Part shown: positions 5,280-15,050 of the stretch, piece by piece
Position numbering within the stretch: the first letter of the stretch is position 1
Layout of the letters: each line of letters starts with the position of its first letter
Source: Sediminibacterium sp.
GTDB taxonomy: Bacteria; Bacteroidota; Bacteroidia; Chitinophagales; Chitinophagaceae
NCBI GenBank assembly: GCA_030726065.1
Contig: JANREK010000038.1
Location: forward strand, 1-64,000
Length of the DNA: 64,000 nt
Direction of reading: 5' to 3'
The notes under the pieces: generated by a model
Databases searched by the model: none
What the model saw: the letters and a program-made list of their open reading frames with translations, nothing else
Told to the model about the DNA's origin: nothing
Program-made: the position numbers and the translations under genes

Positions 5280-6263
5280 CTATACCACCAATAAACTGCA
5301 ACCTCGGCGGTCACTGGCATCCACTCTTCCTAATACTTGAAAGCTACCGTCCTCATTGATCTCACCCAAATCCTGCGTAGCTATAAATGAGCAACTGTAT
5401 AAATTGGCTAAGTCAATAATATGTAATACTCCCCTTCCAATACTTTTTAACAATGTTGGATCATCTTCATCACTCACCAATACTTTCATCCAAGGAGGAC
5501 AAATAAAAATCCCATCTCCTTTAGAATAGGCTTGACTTAATAATTCAGTCATTCCGTATTCTGAATGTATTTTTTGCGTGCCTAATTGAGTCGCTAATAA
5601 AGTGTGTAGTTCCATTTTTGTCAGCTCTTGTTTTCGCCCTTTCATACCGCCAGTTTCAACAACGATCGTATTATTTAATTGCTGCGGGAAAACAGCGCTA
5701 AAATCAATCAATGCAAAACTGACACCTATCAACCAAACTTTTTGTTTTTGATTTTCTAATTTTTTTAAAACTTTGTCTAAGGAAGTAAAATCGTCCAAAT
5801 AAAAATCACTATCCGGATGATTCGATTTTTTAATTAGCTCATTCACCATGTATACCAAGGAGGAATGGTTACGTTCTAAGTAGGAAGGCAGCAAACCTAT
5901 TACACAATAGTCTGCGGGTGCTCCGTAAAATAATTGAAAACATTTCAAAAAACTTGCTTCATAAATAGCCGTATTATTTACCCAATGTTTACTGACCACA
6001 TCCTGTGTGGTGCCACTACTTTCAAATAAGGTGGTGGGTTGATCTCCTACAAAAACGTCATAGGTCTTAAAAAAGGAAATGGGTAAAAAAGGAATCTGGT
6101 TAACCTCATTCGTTAAATGTTCCTGATGTTTCATTAATTGAACCCACTTTTGATACACCGGATTGTGCTGCACCTGCCATTGAAATACTTTTTTACAGGT
6201 GGGTAAAAACTCTTCATTGGATAAGCTCCATAAGCTTTCAATATCAATAGGTGGCTGAATCAA
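5280..6263 (-). CDS. LuxE-like acyl-protein synthetase / acyltransferase (ANL superfamily)
   Basis: Roughly 328 residues. The motifs are those of adenylate-forming enzymes: FESSGTTQDV (phosphate-binding loop), EYGMTELLSQ (A5-like), and TQDLGEI with GRVDASDRRG near the C-terminus. The small C-terminal lid domain of full acyl-CoA ligases is missing, as in LuxE. LuxE proteins activate fatty acids and transfer them to a partner protein; no LuxC/LuxD partner is nearby, so the substrate here is unknown. The ORF track starts at 6377, but a perfect TAnnTTTG element at 6284-6291 lies inside that extension. I therefore prefer the TTG at 6263 (IQPPIDIESLWSL follows), although no ATG confirms it. Confidence 0.75.
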   Translation of the reverse strand: MIQPPIDIESLWSLSNEEFLPTCKKVFQWQVQHNPVYQKWVQLMKHQEHLTNEVNQIPFLPISFFKTYDVFVGDQPTTLFESSGTTQDVVSKHWVNNTAIYEASFLKCFQLFYGAPADYCVIGLLPSYLERNHSSLVYMVNELIKKSNHPDSDFYLDDFTSLDKVLKKLENQKQKVWLIGVSFALIDFSAVFPQQLNNTIVVETGGMKGRKQELTKMELHTLLATQLGTQKIHSEYGMTELLSQAYSKGDGIFICPPWMKVLVSDEDDPTLLKSIGRGVLHIIDLANLYSCSFIATQDLGEINEDGSFQVLGRVDASDRRGCSLLVV

Positions 6264-6283
6264 AATGATTAATTTGGTCGAGA

Positions 6284-6291
6284 CAAAAATA
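6284..6291 (-). promoter_or_regulatory. -7 promoter element of the LuxE-like gene
   Basis: TATTTTTG on the minus strand matches TAnnTTTG exactly. It lies within the 5' extension of the ORF-track call and supports a start downstream at about 6263. Confidence 0.45.
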
Positions 6292-6382
6292 GAATAATAA
6301 AGCCATAAAATTGCGCTTGACTGCCTGTGAAAGGATATCGTAATTAGTAGTATATTGCAAGGGTAAATTTTAAACATTTTTT

Positions 6383-7510
6383 ATGGCAAAAGCAACATCA
6401 AAAAAAGGTAATACCCCAGCTAAAAAGGAATTAATCAATGCAACCTCCTATGCCTTCTTAAAGACCTATATCAATAATGCCTCCCCTGTTGGTTTTGAAA
6501 CAAGTGGACAAAAGTTATGGTTGGATTATATTAAACAGTATGTTGACACAACATTTACAGATGCTTATGGCACAGCAGTGGGTGTCATTAATCCGGAAGC
6601 CCCTTTTAAAGTGGTGATAGAAGCCCATGCGGATGAAATAAGCTGGTTTGTCAACTATATCAACGATCAAGGTTTGATCCATTTAAAAAGAAACGGCGGC
6701 GTGGATCACCAAATTGCTCCTTCCATGCGTGTTTGGATTCATGGAAAAAAAGGTCCCGTAAAAGCTGTATTTGGATGGCCAGCTATACATACCAGATTAA
6801 GTAATCCTGAACAAAAGGAACCACAACCAAAAGTGGATAATTTAACACTGGATTGTGGTGCAAGATCTAAAAAAGAAGTTGAAGCGCTAGGCATACATAT
6901 TGGATCGGTGGTGACCTATGAAGAAGGCTTTGATGAGTTAGCAAACAACTTTATCATTGGACGTGCATTTGATAATCGCGTTGGTGGTTTTATGATTGCT
7001 GAAGTTGCACGTATTTTAAAAGAGAATAAAAAGAAACTTCCATTTGGTTTATACATAGTAAATGCTGTGCAAGAAGAAATTGGTTTACGTGGCGCTGAAA
7101 TGATAGCACGTCGTATCAAACCGAATATTGCCATTATTACCGATGTGACACACGATACGCATACACCTATGATTAATAAAGCCATTGAAGGTGATATTCA
7201 ATGTGGCAAAGGACCATCACTTGCTTACGCCCCTGCCATTCACAACAAATTATTAGCGATTGTTGAAAATATAGCCATTGCGAAAAAAATACCCGTGCAG
7301 TTTAGAACATTAAGTAGAAGCACCGGAACTGATACGGATAGCTTTGCATATGCAAATGATGGTTGTCCTTCTGTATTAATATCCTTACCATTAAGATATA
7401 TGCATACGACTGTTGAAATGATTCATAAGAAAGATATCGTGGATACAATTCAATTGATGTATGAAACATTATTAACATTGACCCCGAAGACAAACCTAAG
7501 TTACCTATAA
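6383..7510 (+). CDS. M42 family metallopeptidase (aminopeptidase)
   Basis: 375 residues, the usual M42 length. M42 enzymes are dinuclear metal aminopeptidases that form large self-compartmentalising shells in the cytosol. Expected ligand motifs are present: VVIEAHADEISWFV (first His/Asp), IGRAFDNRVGG (bridging Asp), VNAVQEEIGLRGAEM (catalytic Glu pair), IITDVTHDTH, and a late SLPLRYMHTTVEM segment. The N-terminus has a short lysine-rich extension (MAKATSKKGNTPAKK). The stop overlaps the ATG of the next gene (TAATG), so it is probably co-translated with the amidotransferase that follows. Substrate preference cannot be inferred. Confidence 0.9.
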   Translation: MAKATSKKGNTPAKKELINATSYAFLKTYINNASPVGFETSGQKLWLDYIKQYVDTTFTDAYGTAVGVINPEAPFKVVIEAHADEISWFVNYINDQGLIHLKRNGGVDHQIAPSMRVWIHGKKGPVKAVFGWPAIHTRLSNPEQKEPQPKVDNLTLDCGARSKKEVEALGIHIGSVVTYEEGFDELANNFIIGRAFDNRVGGFMIAEVARILKENKKKLPFGLYIVNAVQEEIGLRGAEMIARRIKPNIAIITDVTHDTHTPMINKAIEGDIQCGKGPSLAYAPAIHNKLLAIVENIAIAKKIPVQFRTLSRSTGTDTDSFAYANDGCPSVLISLPLRYMHTTVEMIHKKDIVDTIQLMYETLLTLTPKTNLSYL

Positions 7511-8295
7511 TGGCCAGCACCTCCATTAAAATTGCTATCATCGATATGTATGATGATACCAGTAATTTGGGGATGACTTGTATTATAGATATTTTAAACA
7601 ATTGGAGTAAACATAGGAGTATTCAAATGGAATACCAAATATTTTCACTCCGAGATAAAGGTGAAATTCCCGATCACAGTTTTGATATTTACCTATCCTC
7701 AGGTGGGCCTGGCTCCCCAATCGATTCCGCTGGAAGCACCTGGGACAATTTATATGTAAATTGGTTACAACACATGCTTTTAATTAAAAAGCCGGTACTA
7801 CTTATTTGTCATAGTTTTCAAATTGCTTGTCGTCATTTTAATTTTGGAAATGTCTGTTTACGAAAATCAACACAAATTGGCGTGTTGCCTGTACATCCAT
7901 TAGTGGACGATCCTATTTTTGCAAATTTGAATGACCCACTCTATACTTTAGAAAGTAGACTTTATCAAATCATTGAACCCAATGATGAAAATATAAATGC
8001 CTTAGGCGCAAAAATTATTGCGCTTGAAAAACACCGTCCATATGTCCCTTTGGAAAGGGCAATTATGGCAATAAAATTTAGTGATAAAATGTATGGTGTG
8101 CAATTTCATCCGGAAGGAGAACAAAATGTTTTGCTTGGTTTTTTTAATGAAGAAAAAATGAAAAGAAATATTATTGATAAATTTGGAGAACAAAAATGGG
8201 AGGTAATCATTAACAATTTGAACGATATTAAAAAATTACCAAAAACACATGCTCATTTTATTCCAAACTTTCTGAACCTCGCTGTTGGAAATTAA
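7510..8295 (+). CDS. Class I glutamine amidotransferase-like protein of unknown product
   Basis: 261 residues. The GATase-1 triad is readable: the nucleophile elbow LLICHSFQIACRHF (Cys100; compare ICYGMQ in GMP synthase, with Ser replacing the usual Gly), and GVQFHPEGE giving His200 and Glu202. The segment YLSSGGPGSPIDS resembles the GGPGS loop of GuaA-type glutaminases. The domain should release ammonia from glutamine for a partner synthetase. It starts inside the stop codon of the M42 gene and is followed 13 bases later by an ATP-grasp-like gene, the obvious acceptor partner. It is longer than a bare GATase and has its own C-terminal tail (IPNFLNLAVGN). I recognise the pair as conserved in other Bacteroidota but know of no characterised product. 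Confidence 0.82.
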   Translation: MASTSIKIAIIDMYDDTSNLGMTCIIDILNNWSKHRSIQMEYQIFSLRDKGEIPDHSFDIYLSSGGPGSPIDSAGSTWDNLYVNWLQHMLLIKKPVLLICHSFQIACRHFNFGNVCLRKSTQIGVLPVHPLVDDPIFANLNDPLYTLESRLYQIIEPNDENINALGAKIIALEKHRPYVPLERAIMAIKFSDKMYGVQFHPEGEQNVLLGFFNEEKMKRNIIDKFGEQKWEVIINNLNDIKKLPKTHAHFIPNFLNLAVGN

Positions 8296-8308
8296 TAAAA
8301 CTCAAAGC

Positions 8309-9502
8309 ATGATCCCATTATATAGAAAGCAATTTAATGCGGAATTTAACGAAACTAAATATCAAGCATACCTCAATTATTTCAATGAATTATTTCCAAA
8401 TTCAGTTGATTTCAGAATTGCAGAAACCCCACTATTCCTCACAGCAGCATTTAAAAATCAATTACTTGAAGTGGGCGAATATGTATGTTCTCAAATTTTA
8501 GCTGCTGATTTTATAGCAAAGACAGAAAAATCCTTAGAAAATACAAGATGTACCCCCAATGAACAAGGCCTTCCCGAATGTATCGTGATAGATTTTGCGA
8601 TTGCCCATAATGCGCAAAACGAAATTGCACCTGCTTTAATTGAACTTCAAGGATTCCCGTCCATATTTGCATTTGAAGTACTTCAAGACGAGGCATTAAG
8701 AAATAGTTATAGTATACCCGAAAATTTGTCTCCCTATTTAAACGGCTACACAAAGGATCAATATCTAAGCCATTTATCTAGAATTATAAAAGGGGAAATG
8801 GGCGAACATACTGTGTTATTGGAGCTATTTCCAAAAGAACAAAAAACAAGAATTGATTTTTATTGTACCAATCAATATTTAGATATCCCAACTGTTTGTA
8901 TTACTGAAATTATTAAAAAAGGGAAGGAACTATTTTATGAAAGGGATGGGGTTGCGATTAAAATAAATCGAATATATAACCGCGTAGTAACTGATGAACT
9001 AAAAAATAAATCGGAGGAAATAAAGGAAAAAGCAGAATTTTTATACGCGGAACTTGATGTCAGCTGGGTTACCCACCCCAACCATTTTTTTAGAATAAGC
9101 AAATACCTACTCCCTTATTTACATCATGATGGTGTACCTAAAACACAATTTGTCGACCAAATAAAAAGTATTCCAACTAATTTAGAAAAATATATACTCA
9201 AGCCCTTATTTTCTTTTGCAGGCCAAGGAGTTATTATTGATGTTCAATCCTCCGATTTTGATACAATTTTAGATCCTGCAAACTGGATAATGCAAGAAAA
9301 AGTAAATTATGCGCCATGCGTTGCAACACCAGATGGTTTTGCAAAAGCAGAAATAAGACTATTTTACTTTTGGGATAAGCCCACACAAAAATACATAGCC
9401 ACCTTAAATTTATGCAGATTAAGTAAAGGTAAAATGATTGGTGTTAATTATAACCAAACTGCCACCTGGGTAGGTGGCAGTTTGGCCTATTTCGAAAAAT
9501 AA
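8309..9502 (+). CDS. ATP-grasp-like ligase candidate, unknown product
   Basis: About 397 residues with no named function that I recognise. The C-terminal third carries ATP-grasp-like features: YILKPLFSFAGQGVIIDV near residue 300 (lysine strand plus glycine-rich loop), NWIMQEKVNYAP (hinge), and KAEIRLFYFW followed by LCRLSKGKMIGVNYNQ, which could supply the Mg-binding acidic and Asn residues. The N-terminal part contains PALIELQGFPSIFAF, EQKTRIDFYC and KINRIYNRVV. ATP-grasp enzymes activate a carboxylate as acyl-phosphate for attack by an amine, so ammonia from the adjacent GATase is a natural second substrate (inference). The ORF track uses a TTG at 8285 that overlaps the previous gene; I prefer the ATG at 8309 (MIPLYRKQFN). 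Confidence 0.7.
   Translation: MIPLYRKQFNAEFNETKYQAYLNYFNELFPNSVDFRIAETPLFLTAAFKNQLLEVGEYVCSQILAADFIAKTEKSLENTRCTPNEQGLPECIVIDFAIAHNAQNEIAPALIELQGFPSIFAFEVLQDEALRNSYSIPENLSPYLNGYTKDQYLSHLSRIIKGEMGEHTVLLELFPKEQKTRIDFYCTNQYLDIPTVCITEIIKKGKELFYERDGVAIKINRIYNRVVTDELKNKSEEIKEKAEFLYAELDVSWVTHPNHFFRISKYLLPYLHHDGVPKTQFVDQIKSIPTNLEKYILKPLFSFAGQGVIIDVQSSDFDTILDPANWIMQEKVNYAPCVATPDGFAKAEIRLFYFWDKPTQKYIATLNLCRLSKGKMIGVNYNQTATWVGGSLAYFEK
9454..9485. repeat. Perfect 13-bp inverted repeat inside the end of the ATP-grasp-like gene
   Basis: CCAAACTGCCACC and GGTGGCAGTTTGG are exact reverse complements separated by the six bases TGGGTA. The hairpin encodes residues close to the C-terminus and ends 17 bases before the end of the stop codon. 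No T-run follows on either strand. It lies between two convergent genes and may act as a shared terminator or a 3'-end stabiliser. Confidence 0.7.
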
Positions 9503-9525: not shown

Positions 9526-10686
9526 CTATTCCTCCGCACTATTCTTTAGTTTCATTAATAAGGTATAGGCGTTTTTCAGAACGATGTCCTGACCTTTTAA
9601 ATTCGTTTTAATTTCAGTAAACCCATTCGTAGAAACGCCTAATTCGACTGCAACTAATTTATAAGTTTGATCCGGTTGTTTCACAAATACAAATGGTTTA
9701 TTTTCCCATTTCACGATTGATTCTTCTGTTAATGCATCCACTTTTGCATTATTTAAAGCAATTTCAGCATTGACATAAGTGCCAGGATATAAACGAACAT
9801 TCTCATTGACTAAATGACAATGCACATCAGTGGTTCTTTCTTCATTGATATTAGGGGTAATGACTGCCACATGTGCCACATATTCTTTTGATATATCGTT
9901 ATTGGTTGTAAATACCACTTCATTTCCTATTTTTAAGTTGGGCACATCATTTTCGTAAATAATTAATCTTACATGTAAATCACTTGGATCTACAATTTCG
10001 AATAACACATCCGTGGGCGTAACATACTTTCCAATATTAACATTCACCTTAGTCACATAGCCACTAATAGGTGCATTAAAATTGATTGACCTTGAAATAG
10101 TTGTTTCATTTAATTGGGTGGGATCAATTCCGATTAGTTTTAATTTTTCCTCTAATGATTTGACTAAATATTTTTGACTCTCGAAGTCGCTTTTAGCCAA
10201 TTGATATATTTTATCACTGGTGGATTTGGTCACATTTAAATCTCGCTGTCTAACAAAATCAGCATCTAAGTAGGCTAACCTACTTTTGGCTGTTAAATAA
10301 TCCTGTTGGATTTGAATGTAAATGGGGTCTTCAATCACAGCAAGTAAAGCCCCTTTTTTAACAAACATACCTGGAATTAAGTTCGTTTTTTTCAAGTACC
10401 CTCCCAATGGGATACTGATGGAAACTATATTACTTGGTGGTACGTCTATTAAGCCATTCACTTTTAAAACTTGGTGCATTTCCTTATTTTGGACCTGCCC
10501 AATAGATAAATTGGCTGTTTTTAATTGCTCCGCAGTTAAACGTACCACATTCAAAATAGCACTGTCCGGCTTCACTGAACTTGCTACTGCTTTTTGCTCC
10601 TCTTTTTTATTTGCAGTACATGCCAACATTAAACTAATCCCTGCAATGGCGAAAATTTGATTTGATTTCATAAATATATTTTTCAT
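9526..10686 (-). CDS. czcB: RND efflux periplasmic adaptor lipoprotein (CzcB/CusB family)
   Basis: 386 residues. The N-terminus ends in a lipobox (GISLMLAC), so the protein should be lipid-anchored in the periplasm. Family features are the first lipoyl half (ISIPLGGYLKKTNLIPGMFVKKGALLAVIEDP), an alpha-helical hairpin with heptad-like sequence (about residues 120-170), the second lipoyl half (FNAPISGYVTKVNVNIGKYVTPTDVLFEIVD), and a beta-barrel domain ending in TYVNAEIAL. It links the inner-membrane pump to the outer-membrane channel. Its ATG overlaps the stop of the pump gene (TAATG). A later ATG at 10671 (MKSNQIF) is also possible. No histidine-rich metal-binding N-terminus is visible. Confidence 0.9.
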   Translation of the reverse strand: MKNIFMKSNQIFAIAGISLMLACTANKKEEQKAVASSVKPDSAILNVVRLTAEQLKTANLSIGQVQNKEMHQVLKVNGLIDVPPSNIVSISIPLGGYLKKTNLIPGMFVKKGALLAVIEDPIYIQIQQDYLTAKSRLAYLDADFVRQRDLNVTKSTSDKIYQLAKSDFESQKYLVKSLEEKLKLIGIDPTQLNETTISRSINFNAPISGYVTKVNVNIGKYVTPTDVLFEIVDPSDLHVRLIIYENDVPNLKIGNEVVFTTNNDISKEYVAHVAVITPNINEERTTDVHCHLVNENVRLYPGTYVNAEIALNNAKVDALTEESIVKWENKPFVFVKQPDQTYKLVAVELGVSTNGFTEIKTNLKGQDIVLKNAYTLLMKLKNSAEE

Positions 10687-13600
10687 TATTTTGTAGCAGT
10701 TAATTTTTCTAATTCAATCGCATTTTCATTTAATTGTTGAATATAAATTAAATATTCACTTTTTATTTGAATTGCCTGATTTATAATCATCACCCATTCT
10801 AAATAAGTAATCTCCCCCGCATTTATTTTTCGACCTGCAGTTTCAATAAGGAGTGTAGCATTGGGCAACATGTTTTTTTGATAGGCAATGACTAATTTCT
10901 TATTTTGTAGATACGCATTTAGTAAATTTTTAAAATTTGAGCTTAATTGCTGCTGTAGGGCCAAGCTTTCTAATTTATTTTGCTCAATTTGAACTTTACT
11001 CGCAGCAATTTTTGATTTTTGGGCAGTTGAAAATATAGGAAGCGATAGTCCTAGATTGATTGCGCCAAATCGATGATTGCTTCCAAAATAAGATTCACTT
11101 CCTTGAGTTGTAGGCTGCCAGCCAATAATGGTGGATGAGTTATAACCCACATTGAAAGAAGGTTGCAACTTACCTTTTTCCAGCTTTTGTTGATTTTCAG
11201 CTAATACCACTTTTTGTTCACCCAATTGAACTAAGGGCGTTTGCCCTATAGCATATACATCGGGTAGCTGCGTCAACGAAATTTCTAATTTATCTGAAGC
11301 AGGCGTATAGCTATTGGTCCCATTTAATAAATAGTTAAACTCATTCAGATTGCTTTCAAAAGATAGCGAAAGTGTTTGTAGTTGATTTGAAATTTGTGTC
11401 AACTGACTTTCGGCAGTTACTTTTTCTAAAACATCAGCACCTCCAGCATTATAACGCTGATTCGCTTTAGTTACAAAAGTGCTATAAATACTATCTGCCT
11501 GCATAAGTAGTTGCTTCTTATTTTGCAATACCAATAGCTGGTAGAATTTATTCTTGACTAATGATTTTAATTCAATTTCATTCGTCAATTTACTTAATTC
11601 ACTCATCAACAGGTTTGATTTATTGATATCCCCCTGACTTTTGTATACACTAGGGAATTGGATATTTTGAGATATCAAAACTCGATTATCATTTTGAAAG
11701 CTATTGATTTTTCCATAACCAAAATCGAATAAGGTTTTATCAATATCTACATTACTCTTCCTTAATGCTTTATAATAATCCACATTCATATTAGATGCGC
11801 GTAAGGAAGTGTTATTCTTTAGTGCAGTATCTATTGCAGCACTAAGACTTATTTTATTTTGCGCAAAACTTGCTTGTCCAAATAATAACAAAATTAAAAT
11901 AGGGATAGCTGTATTTTTATTCATTGTCAAATATTTTGTTCCTTTTTCAAAAAGTAAATACATTATCGGTAGCACAAATAAAGTTAACATGGTTGAAATA
12001 ATTAAACCACCTATAACGACTGTTGCCAAAGGCTTTTGAACCTCACCTCCAGCACCAGTACTAATGGCCATTGGAATAAAACCAAGCGCGGGTACAAGCG
12101 CAGTCATTAATACAGCTCTTAATTTGGATGTAGTCGCATGAATTACAATACGTGTTATATCATGCCAGCCTTCGGATTTGAGCCTATTAAACTCTGTCAC
12201 TAGTAATATCCCATTCAATACCGCAACGCCAAATAATGCAATAAAACCAACCCCTGCGGAAATACTAAACGGCATACTTCTTGCCCATAACGCAAATATT
12301 CCTCCCATTGCCGACAAAGGTATTGCTGTATAAATAAGTAATCCCTGCTTGACTGAACCAAAGGCGAAATATAGCAACAAAAAAATCAAGAATAAGGCAA
12401 TAGGAACCACAATACTTAATCTGTCTTTTGCAGCAGTCATATTCTCAAAAGAACCACCATACACAATGGTGTAGCCTTTTTGCAAGTTAAGTTGTTGGCC
12501 AATTTTCGTTTGAAGTTCTTTGACAATGGTTTGTACATCACGCCCATTAATATTAAACCCAACAATGATACGACGCTTTGTATTTTCTCTTTGGATTTGA
12601 TTCACCCCTTCAATTTCTTCAATGTCTGCTACATAGGATAATGGAATTTGCATACCATTGGCTGTAGAGATATTTAAGTTCTGTATATCTGATACGCTTT
12701 TTCTTGTTTCACCACCAAGGCGAACCACCATATCAAATCTTTTTTCTTCTTCATATACCTGACCTGCAATTTGTCCGGCAAATGCACTATTCACCACCCA
12801 ATTCACCTCTTCTATATTTAAACCATACTTCGCCATTCCATCTCGATTATATTTAATCACCACCTGTGGCATACCTGTCACTTTTTCTTCATAAATATTA
12901 ACCGCACCATCCACCGTTTGAATAATACCATTTAATCGCGCTGCATAATGGGTGAGTGTATCTAAGTTTTCGCCAAATATTTTACAGACCACATCCTGTC
13001 TTGCCCCAGTCATTAATTCATTAAACCGCATTTGAACAGGGTATTGAAACCCAACAGTAATACCCGGAACCTGCTCCAAAACTTTTGTCATTTTGATACT
13101 TAATTCACTAAAGGTTTTAGCAGAAGTCCACTCATTTTTATCTTTCAAGATGATCATCATATCACCTGCTTCAAAAGGCATTGGATCGGCTGGAATTTCG
13201 GCACTACCAATTTTCGTGACTATTTTTTCTACTTCTGGAAAATTTTGAAGCAATAATTTAGTTGCCTTTTGCGTCGACGCAACGGTATTGTTCAAATTAC
13301 TTCCTGTTAACACCCTAGTTTCAACTGCAAAATCGCCTTCCTCTAACTGTGGTATAAATTCACCTCCCATATTCATCAACAAACTAACAGAAACGAAAAA
13401 TAATAGGACGGTTATGCCAATAACTGTCTTTGGAAATTTTAAGACCGTTTTTAAAAATGGCTGATACGCTCGTTCTAACCAGATCATTAGCCTATCCGTA
13501 ATATTTTTTTTGTGATTTAGTTTTTTATTTAAAAATAAAGCGGCCATCATAGGCACATAAGTAATTGATAATATAAATGCGCCGAAAATAGCAAAGGCAA

Positions 13601-15050
13601 TAGTGAATGCCATTGGCTTAAACATCTTTCCCTCAATTCCTTCCAGTGATAAAATTGGGATATATACAATTAAGATGATGATTTGACTAAACACAGCCGA
13701 CTTAATCATGGACCCTGTTGACTTGCCAACTTCTTCATCCATTTGACCTTGATCAATTCTTACAAGTGTCCTAAAATGTTTTGAATGTGCAAATCGGTAT
13801 AAAATTGCTTCTACAACAATGACAGAACCATCAACAATTAATCCAAAATCAATGGCACCTAATGACATTAAGTTCCCACCAACACCAAACATATTCATCA
13901 ATATAATAGCAAATAGCATTGACAATGGAATTACCGAAGAAACAATTAAACCAGCCCTTAAATTTCCTAGAAAAAATACAAGTACGAAAATTACAATTAA
14001 TGCACCTTCCATTAAATTAGTTTTTACTGTACTAATCGCATTGTTGACCATTTTGGTTCTATCCAAGAATGGTTCAATGACCACACCCTCTGGTAACATT
14101 TTTTGAATTTCAGCAATCTTGTCTTTGACCCTCTTCACTACCAAGGATGAATTTTCACCCTTTAACATCATCACTACTGCACCAGCCACTTCCCCTTCAT
14201 CATTATAGGTCATGGCACCGTAACGAATCGCTGCTCCTAATTGTACTTTGGCAATGTCTCTTATCAATAGCGGATTCCCATTAGACATTTGCTTAACTAC
14301 AATTTTTTCAATGTCATCAATATTAACAGTCAAGCCTTCGCTTCTTATATATAATACAGTAGGTCCTTTTTCAATATAAGCACCACCCGTATTTTGATTG
14401 TTTTTTTCTAAGGCAGAAAAGATATCAGAAATGGAAAGTCCATAGGATTTTAATTGATCCTGACGAACTGATATTTCATACTGCTTTAACTTACCGCCAA
14501 AACTTGCTACTTCAGCAACGCCAGGTGTACCCATCAATTGTCTTCTAACAATCCAGTCTTGAATTGTTCTTAACTCCATGGCATCAAACTTTGATTCATA
14601 CCCTTTTAATGGCCTAACTACGTATTGAAATATTTCACCCAATCCTGTTGATACGGGCGCTAATTCGGGTGTGCCTGTGCCAGGTGGAATATCCTGCTGT
14701 ACTTTTTGCAACTTTTCACTTATTTGTTGCCTTGCCCAGTAAATATCAATTTTATCTTCAAACACAATCGTAATCAATGAAAGCCCAAACCTTGAGAAGC
14801 TTCTTATTTGCTTCGTGCCAGGAATACTACTACAAGCTTGCTCAATAGGAAAAGTGACCAACCTTTCAATATCGGTTGCGCCAAGTGATGGCGATACTGT
14901 AATGACTTGTACTTGATTATCCGTGATATCTGGAACCGCATCTATAGGCAATTGTGTTACCTGATAGGCGCCCCATCCAATAAGCGAAACCACAAACAAT
15001 CCAACGATTAACTTATTCTTTATAGAATAGGTTATTATTTTATTTAACAT
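10686..15050 (-). CDS. czcA: CzcA-type heavy-metal RND pump fused to a TolC-like outer-membrane channel
   Basis: 1454 residues in one frame. Residues 1-1040 are a complete heavy-metal RND pump: LPIDAVPDITDNQVQV near the start, and TM4 with AIDFGLIVDGSVIVVEA near residue 400, the divalent-cation (Zn/Co/Cd/Ni) type rather than the CusA (Cu/Ag) type. The second half repeats the fold with FALWARSMPFSISAGVGFIALFG. At residue 1043 a second signal-peptide-like segment begins (MNKNTAIPILILLLFGQASFAQ), followed by about 400 residues of TolC/CzcC-type helical repeats (SLSAAIDTALKNN, QRYNAGGADVLEKVTAESQL, AGEITYLEW). The fused arrangement is known in Bacteroidota. The pump is driven by the proton gradient. 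Upstream is a small conserved gene, downstream the adaptor. No metal regulator is seen. Confidence 0.93.
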   Translation of the reverse strand: MLNKIITYSIKNKLIVGLFVVSLIGWGAYQVTQLPIDAVPDITDNQVQVITVSPSLGATDIERLVTFPIEQACSSIPGTKQIRSFSRFGLSLITIVFEDKIDIYWARQQISEKLQKVQQDIPPGTGTPELAPVSTGLGEIFQYVVRPLKGYESKFDAMELRTIQDWIVRRQLMGTPGVAEVASFGGKLKQYEISVRQDQLKSYGLSISDIFSALEKNNQNTGGAYIEKGPTVLYIRSEGLTVNIDDIEKIVVKQMSNGNPLLIRDIAKVQLGAAIRYGAMTYNDEGEVAGAVVMMLKGENSSLVVKRVKDKIAEIQKMLPEGVVIEPFLDRTKMVNNAISTVKTNLMEGALIVIFVLVFFLGNLRAGLIVSSVIPLSMLFAIILMNMFGVGGNLMSLGAIDFGLIVDGSVIVVEAILYRFAHSKHFRTLVRIDQGQMDEEVGKSTGSMIKSAVFSQIIILIVYIPILSLEGIEGKMFKPMAFTIAFAIFGAFILSITYVPMMAALFLNKKLNHKKNITDRLMIWLERAYQPFLKTVLKFPKTVIGITVLLFFVSVSLLMNMGGEFIPQLEEGDFAVETRVLTGSNLNNTVASTQKATKLLLQNFPEVEKIVTKIGSAEIPADPMPFEAGDMMIILKDKNEWTSAKTFSELSIKMTKVLEQVPGITVGFQYPVQMRFNELMTGARQDVVCKIFGENLDTLTHYAARLNGIIQTVDGAVNIYEEKVTGMPQVVIKYNRDGMAKYGLNIEEVNWVVNSAFAGQIAGQVYEEEKRFDMVVRLGGETRKSVSDIQNLNISTANGMQIPLSYVADIEEIEGVNQIQRENTKRRIIVGFNINGRDVQTIVKELQTKIGQQLNLQKGYTIVYGGSFENMTAAKDRLSIVVPIALFLIFLLLYFAFGSVKQGLLIYTAIPLSAMGGIFALWARSMPFSISAGVGFIALFGVAVLNGILLVTEFNRLKSEGWHDITRIVIHATTSKLRAVLMTALVPALGFIPMAISTGAGGEVQKPLATVVIGGLIISTMLTLFVLPIMYLLFEKGTKYLTMNKNTAIPILILLLFGQASFAQNKISLSAAIDTALKNNTSLRASNMNVDYYKALRKSNVDIDKTLFDFGYGKINSFQNDNRVLISQNIQFPSVYKSQGDINKSNLLMSELSKLTNEIELKSLVKNKFYQLLVLQNKKQLLMQADSIYSTFVTKANQRYNAGGADVLEKVTAESQLTQISNQLQTLSLSFESNLNEFNYLLNGTNSYTPASDKLEISLTQLPDVYAIGQTPLVQLGEQKVVLAENQQKLEKGKLQPSFNVGYNSSTIIGWQPTTQGSESYFGSNHRFGAINLGLSLPIFSTAQKSKIAASKVQIEQNKLESLALQQQLSSNFKNLLNAYLQNKKLVIAYQKNMLPNATLLIETAGRKINAGEITYLEWVMIINQAIQIKSEYLIYIQQLNENAIELEKLTATK

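Follow-up and report, generated by a model that had tools for sequence, protein, structure and literature searches.

What is made by a cluster in which a peptidase, an amidotransferase and an ATP-dependent ligase are encoded one after the other? The question is raised by a contig of Sediminibacterium sp. (Chitinophagaceae; NCBI GenBank assembly GCA_030726065.1, contig JANREK010000038.1), of which positions 1 to 64,000, a stretch of 64,000 nucleotides referred to here as the window, were analyzed. Here, we propose, with a probability of about 0.45, that the amidotransferase (GAT) and the ligase (LIG) belong to a pathway, found throughout the Bacteroidota, for the non-ribosomal synthesis of a small amide or peptide, with GAT most likely giving ammonia to LIG. 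The proposal draws on the folds of the proteins, on catalytic residues that do not vary among orthologues, on the make-up of the operons and on which genes occur together across genomes. The kinds of enzymes are known, their combination is new, and the pathway is real and conserved. The genes, the fold and the active-site residues behind a hidden metabolite are thus specified, and the obvious local reading of the overlapping M42 peptidase gene as a member of the pathway is corrected.

The locus and its conservation across Bacteroidota

The three genes are intact open reading frames (ORFs):

6383..7510, + strand: M42-family aminopeptidase, 375 aa (Pfam PF05343, E=5.8e-74)
7510..8295, + strand: GAT, class-I glutamine amidotransferase-like protein, 261 aa (PF00117, E=4.1e-9)
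8309..9502, + strand: LIG, amide ligase of the glutathione synthetase/glutathionylspermidine synthetase (GspS) fold, 397 aa (AlphaFold2 model, Foldseek, GSP_synth matches of orthologues)

The positions and spacing given in the original prediction hold: the M42 stop codon TAA (7508-7510) overlaps the ATG of GAT at 7510 by one base, and the ATG of LIG at 8309 lies 13 bases beyond the end of the GAT stop at 8295 (an alternative TTG start at 8285 would extend LIG from 397 to 405 aa). The closest relatives of the window are Chitinophagaceae metagenome-assembled genomes, and nearly all loci examined within the genus retain the M42-GAT-LIG order.

In a sample of 396 Bacteroidota genomes, LIG was found in 115 and c2, a RimK-like ATP-grasp protein (TIGR00768, 3.9e-5, below the cut-off of that model), in 139, so that about a quarter to a third of the sampled genomes carry the set. 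One of the 115 LIG matches is a 24-residue fragment, which was left out, giving 114 genomes for the co-occurrence analysis. The phylogenetic coupling of LIG and c2 is near-perfect: 109 of the 114 LIG genomes also encode c2 (odds ratio 234, p 2e-66) and 69 encode GAT (odds ratio 24, p 2e-30), both p being Fisher values that ignore shared ancestry, although the pattern spans many families. c2 is likewise present in 83 of the 86 GAT genomes. The fullest operon in the wider phylum has the order c4 > c2 > c3 > GAT > LIG, where c4 is esterase-like and c3 is a GCS2/YbdK-type ligase that scores above the cut-off of the carboxylate-amine ligase model NF010039. Among 40 loci across the phylum, GAT, c2 and c3 each lie near LIG on the same strand in 18 and c4 does so in 13; GAT is upstream of LIG on the same strand in 18, and many operons have between −4 and about +40 bases separating GAT from LIG. 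The expected pairing of GAT and LIG in other Bacteroidota is therefore borne out, often as adjacency; what had been missed is a larger set, with c2 and c3 among its members, of which GAT and LIG make up half. Because the genes are intact, their order is retained across the genus and GAT and LIG stand together in 18 of 40 loci across the phylum, a chance arrangement is excluded. A search for LIG on plasmids yielded no match, and spread by plasmids is accordingly rejected.

GAT was present without LIG in 17 genomes. Wherever adjacent c2 and GAT without LIG were read (seven of seven loci, L159-L165), GAT stood beside e4, another circularly permuted ATP-grasp protein of about 450-470 aa (CP_ATPgrasp_2, 2.1e-9), in a second operon type, c2 > e4 > GAT, in some cases flanked by esterases on the c2 and GAT sides; at two further loci (L169, L171), GAT was alone within the stretch read. 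GAT thus mostly accompanies a circularly permuted ATP-grasp ligase, and LIG can do without GAT. A ligase that dispenses with its partner, but not the reverse, is the pattern expected if the partner supplies ammonia.

Two further arrangements of LIG were observed. At one locus, a sodium:solute symporter (SSF) is fused to the N-terminus of LIG in a single ORF (L084:6137-8737), and at two related loci (L098, L099) the same two parts occur in split frames with the same junction; this joining suggests import of a LIG substrate. In two families (L082, L083), LIG lies downstream of an Amidohydro_3 amidohydrolase gene, with overlapping ends.

Fold and active site of the ligase

The LIG protein of the window has no meaningful Pfam or NCBIfam match, remaining below every curated cut-off, and does not itself match Pfam GSP_synth. 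Among 57 LIG orthologues, 27 match GSP_synth (best 2.4e-5) and 14 match CP_ATPgrasp_2. A profile search gave Escherichia coli YgiC as the top PDB match, with weak significance (E 0.014). Direct searches of Pfam, NCBIfam and the PDB with the LIG sequence thus gave nothing or only weak matches, and the family emerged from the orthologues and the structure model. The AlphaFold2 model of LIG (predicted local distance difference test score, pLDDT, 94.4) matched 3n6x (2.2e-14), 1m0w (1.3e-13) and 7uk8 (9.5e-13) in Foldseek, and the matches to this fold spanned E 2.2e-14 to 1.1e-7 at probability 1.00, with template modelling (TM) scores of 0.46-0.63 by query. Nearly all of the 26 matches with E<0.001 are glutathione, homoglutathione or glutathionylspermidine synthetases or their close relatives.

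The active site was compared by hhalign, which aligned LIG to YgiC with E=5e-6 across the lysines and the glycine-rich loop; alignment to Gss alone was not significant. The residues concerned are encoded as follows:

9101..9103, + strand: LIG Lys265, opposite YgiC Lys267 (hhalign), invariant in the 57 orthologues
9200..9229, + strand: LIG KPLFSFAGQG (K298-G307), ATP-binding lysine strand and glycine-rich loop (hhalign to YgiC)

K265, K298 and G305 of LIG pair with K267, K302 and G309 of YgiC, and the segments SKYLLPYL and KPLFSFAGQG stand opposite NKALLPLL and KPIFSREGAN, respectively; YILKPLFSFAGQG is also present in LIG. K265, K298, P299, G305 and G307 are invariant among the orthologues, as are D95, E112 and Q114. 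By eye only, the latter three can be placed opposite D102, E115 and N117 of YgiC, which we take to be the Mg site of the family. In this placement, LIG differs from the GSP_synth-type enzymes at two points: Gln114 takes the place of the Mg-binding Asn, and the Arg that YgiC has two residues ahead of D102 (R100) has no equivalent ahead of Asp95.

The match of the model to glutathione and glutathionylspermidine synthetases, together with the GSP_synth matches of 27 orthologues, identifies LIG, as modelled, as a circularly permuted ATP-grasp carboxylate-amine ligase, far diverged from the characterized members. The "ATP-grasp-like" reading of the original prediction is thereby supported, by hidden Markov model matches of the orthologues and by structure searches. 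LIG shares with glutathione synthetase, GspS, YgiC and YjfC the fold, the ATP-binding lysines, the glycine-rich loop and the formation of an amide, at a structural identity of 10-14%. Unlike GspS, it lacks the GspS amidase domain and lies in an operon with GAT, c2 and c3. YgiC and YjfC are described as peptide-spermidine ligases in their RefSeq annotation and in one report (PMC12568646).

Class and catalytic triad of the amidotransferase

GAT scores 36.8 bits against PF00117, above the gathering score of 22.8, and matches only class-I models in Pfam and NCBIfam. The nucleophile elbow is found here:

7804..7821, + strand: GAT nucleophile elbow ICHSFQ (I99-Q104) (sequence, alignment)

The triad C100/H200/E202 recognized from the start is invariant in all 36 orthologues, and the unusual elbow is genuine as well: in place of CxGxQ, the usual though not universal form in class-I amidotransferases, the orthologues have C-[HY]-S-[FY]-Q, with Ser102 replacing the glycine. 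Ser102 and Gln104 are invariant and His101 and Phe103 nearly so. The AlphaFold2 model (pLDDT 93.5) matched class-I glutamine amidotransferases, Arabidopsis gamma-glutamyl peptidase 1 (GGP1) and homoserine succinyltransferases about equally well in Foldseek. PF00117 and the Foldseek result uphold the amidotransferase class of GAT, and since amidotransferases and GGP1 match about equally, the fold alone cannot separate a glutaminase from a gamma-glutamyl hydrolase. With GGP1 and class-I amidotransferase-like hydrolases GAT shares the fold and the Cys-His-Glu triad; unlike GGP1-type hydrolases, it is genetically tied to ATP-grasp ligases.

Proposed pathway and alternatives

In the pathway that we propose, c3 and c2 would build the substrate of LIG, an amide or a peptide acid, with c2 supplying it in most genomes and c3 often. 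LIG would use ATP to turn a carboxylate into an acyl phosphate and then couple it to an amine, as in glutathione and glutathionylspermidine synthetases. GAT would hydrolyze glutamine at the Cys-His-Glu triad, the ammonia passing to the adjacent circularly permuted ATP-grasp ligase, and one bond of the product would be a primary amide. In the window's clade, the scheme would operate with c2 lost and c3 retained on another contig. The order of the steps, the use of ammonia and the nature of the product, a small metabolite and not a modification of proteins, are what we infer.

Ammonia supply is favored because GAT mostly stands beside a ligase, and not the reverse, and because there is a precedent: MurT/GatD, the peptidoglycan amidation complex, is a glutamine amidotransferase with an ATP-dependent ligase that form an amide, as described in one report (PMC3267633). 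There, too, a class-I amidotransferase gene adjoins the ligase gene; MurT, however, is a Mur ligase, whereas LIG is a circularly permuted ATP-grasp protein of the glutathione synthetase fold. Simple amidation with GAT-derived ammonia is plausible. The original suggestion that the pair amidates a carboxylate or builds a small amide or peptide thus stands as to the pairing of an ATP-grasp ligase with an amidotransferase and the fold of LIG, which is one of peptide and amide synthesis, and as to ammonia it is no more than plausible.

Several observations tell against ammonia transfer. The elbow of GAT has serine for glycine, and a gamma-glutamyl peptidase is among its fold neighbors. GAT is missing from 45 of the 114 LIG genomes, and in one clade of families it is encoded elsewhere in the genome, away from LIG. 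In four GAT-less families (L087, L088, L093, L094), the slot between c3 and LIG is occupied by an M29-like peptidase of 339-342 aa (PF02073, 4.7e-15), which suggests that the position serves hydrolysis and not the donation of ammonia. Finally, the known enzymes with the LIG fold work with amino acids or polyamines instead of ammonia.

These points lead to the main rival, in which the pathway is the same and GAT is a hydrolase of gamma-glutamyl (or similar acyl) groups; it is suggested by the GCS2-type c3, the likeness of the GAT fold to GGP1 and the M29-like peptidase that can take the place of GAT, and we consider it unlikely, if less so than the other alternatives below. Here c3 would add a gamma-glutamyl group, LIG and c2 would extend the intermediate and GAT would remove the group, leaving a small peptide, much as PuuA and PuuD add and remove gamma-glutamate. 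Equally doubtful are its corollaries, that the gamma-glutamyl group protects or activates the intermediate and that the nucleophile of LIG is an amino acid or amine. The retention of c3 in the window's genome and the joining of amino acids or polyamines by the fold relatives of LIG fit this scheme. On the other hand, GAT also occurs without c3 (L072, L106) and beside e4 in seven lineages, and an ATP-grasp ligase, for which a free hydrolase has no use, nearly always accompanies it.

A more specific and rather speculative extension, less likely than not, is that c2, c3, GAT and LIG, with the esterase c4, make an unrecognized glutathione-like small molecule of the Bacteroidota. This would be a di- or tripeptide, either gamma-glutamyl or C-terminally amidated, with a physiological role as a thiol, osmolyte or signal, and the window's freshwater clade would make a shortened or altered form of it after the loss of c2.

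Loss of c2 in the window's clade

Of the 61 genomes of the genus, 56 encode LIG. Neither the window's genome nor any sampled member of its clade has c2; within the genus it is confined to about 20, mostly larger, genomes, where it occurs together with c3 at a second locus. In the window's genome, c3 stands alone on another contig (G000:C7:11414-12487). The clade that lost c2 is a natural experiment for the order of the steps. We call it "freshwater" on the assumption given by what is generally known of the genus and by how a few relatives are titled in their records. In the LIG tree, the branch leading to the window's clade is long (0.47 changes per site, support 100/100), and it coincides with the loss of c2.

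It is conceivable, and in our judgment improbable, that the loss of c2 in the freshwater clade freed GAT-LIG for another substrate, or that the pathway is decaying, with a product unlike the one made elsewhere in the phylum. The absence of c2 throughout the sampled clade and its presence in the larger-genome clade of the genus would fit, as would the long, fully supported branch and the indels seen in the orthologue alignment of GAT; streamlined genomes may, however, simply evolve faster. Because the catalytic residues of GAT and LIG, the intact frames and c3 are all retained, decay is unlikely. The retained catalytic residues indicate that GAT-LIG of this clade is probably functional, and, judging from the sequences, it may use a different substrate.

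The M42 peptidase and known systems

The M42 protein is a clear family member (249.2 bits against PF05343, gathering score 23.2), and the original prediction had it processing or recycling the product of the pair. A functional three-gene cassette of this kind has some points in its favor: the translational overlap of M42 and GAT in the window, their adjacency in nearly all loci examined in the genus, and the position of M42 about 1.4 kb upstream of GAT in a genome of another genus (G224). The cluster for the osmoprotectant N-acetylglutaminylglutamine amide (NAGGN) likewise combines an M42 peptidase, an amidotransferase and a ligase. The phyletic pattern runs the other way. In a count over 40 chosen genomes, from which five of the genus were excluded as incomplete, M42 was found in 15 of 20 genomes with LIG and in 12 of 15 without, which rules it out as an essential member of the pathway. 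Outside the genus, other classes included, it is unlinked to the pair in nearly all genomes, and its conservation (83-99%), far above that of GAT or LIG, is that of a housekeeping protein. M42 is probably a housekeeping aminopeptidase that sits upstream by chance in this genus; a role in processing or recycling an amide or peptide product, as in the NAGGN cluster, is improbable, and slightly more so than a product altered by the loss of c2.

Membership in the NAGGN system was rejected, the M42 protein scoring 42.2 bits against TIGR03106 (cut-off 397.75), which leaves it outside the subfamily that NCBIfam names "osmoprotectant NAGGN system". GAT is of class I, and the NAGGN amidotransferase is a class-II, asparagine synthase-like enzyme. 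A defense system was dismissed as well, none of GAT, LIG, M42, c2, c3 and c4 matching a PADLOC profile.

The statement that no characterized pathway has this trio survives in that we found no curated family or paper naming the pathway, and has to be amended in that the NAGGN cluster has such a trio, built from other enzyme families. Iyer, Abhiman, Burroughs and Aravind (Mol BioSyst, 2009) reportedly discussed operons of GCS2/YbdK and ATP-grasp proteins as predicted non-ribosomal peptide pathways, which likewise combine ATP-grasp and GCS2-like ligases with peptidases. Literature searches returned no paper on the present operon, though Iyer et al. may mention it.

Flanking genes and minor features

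A scan of the locus for promoters and terminators gave a result no better than shuffled sequences. Divergently adjacent to M42 lies a LuxE-like acyl-protein synthetase gene (5280-6377, − strand; PF04443, 2.8e-10), a conserved neighbor of M42 in the closest genomes. The other flank holds a convergent efflux gene. Positions 10686-15050 (− strand) encode a CusA/CzcA-like RND pump, which, read by eye, seems fused to a TolC-like outer-membrane factor in a single 1454-aa ORF. Inside the 3' end of LIG, at 9458-9481 of the window, there is a perfect 10-bp inverted repeat, ACTGCCACCT-GGGT-AGGTGGCAGT, that is retained in four close relatives (L031-L034) and broken in two others (L035, L036) and is probably codon-driven.

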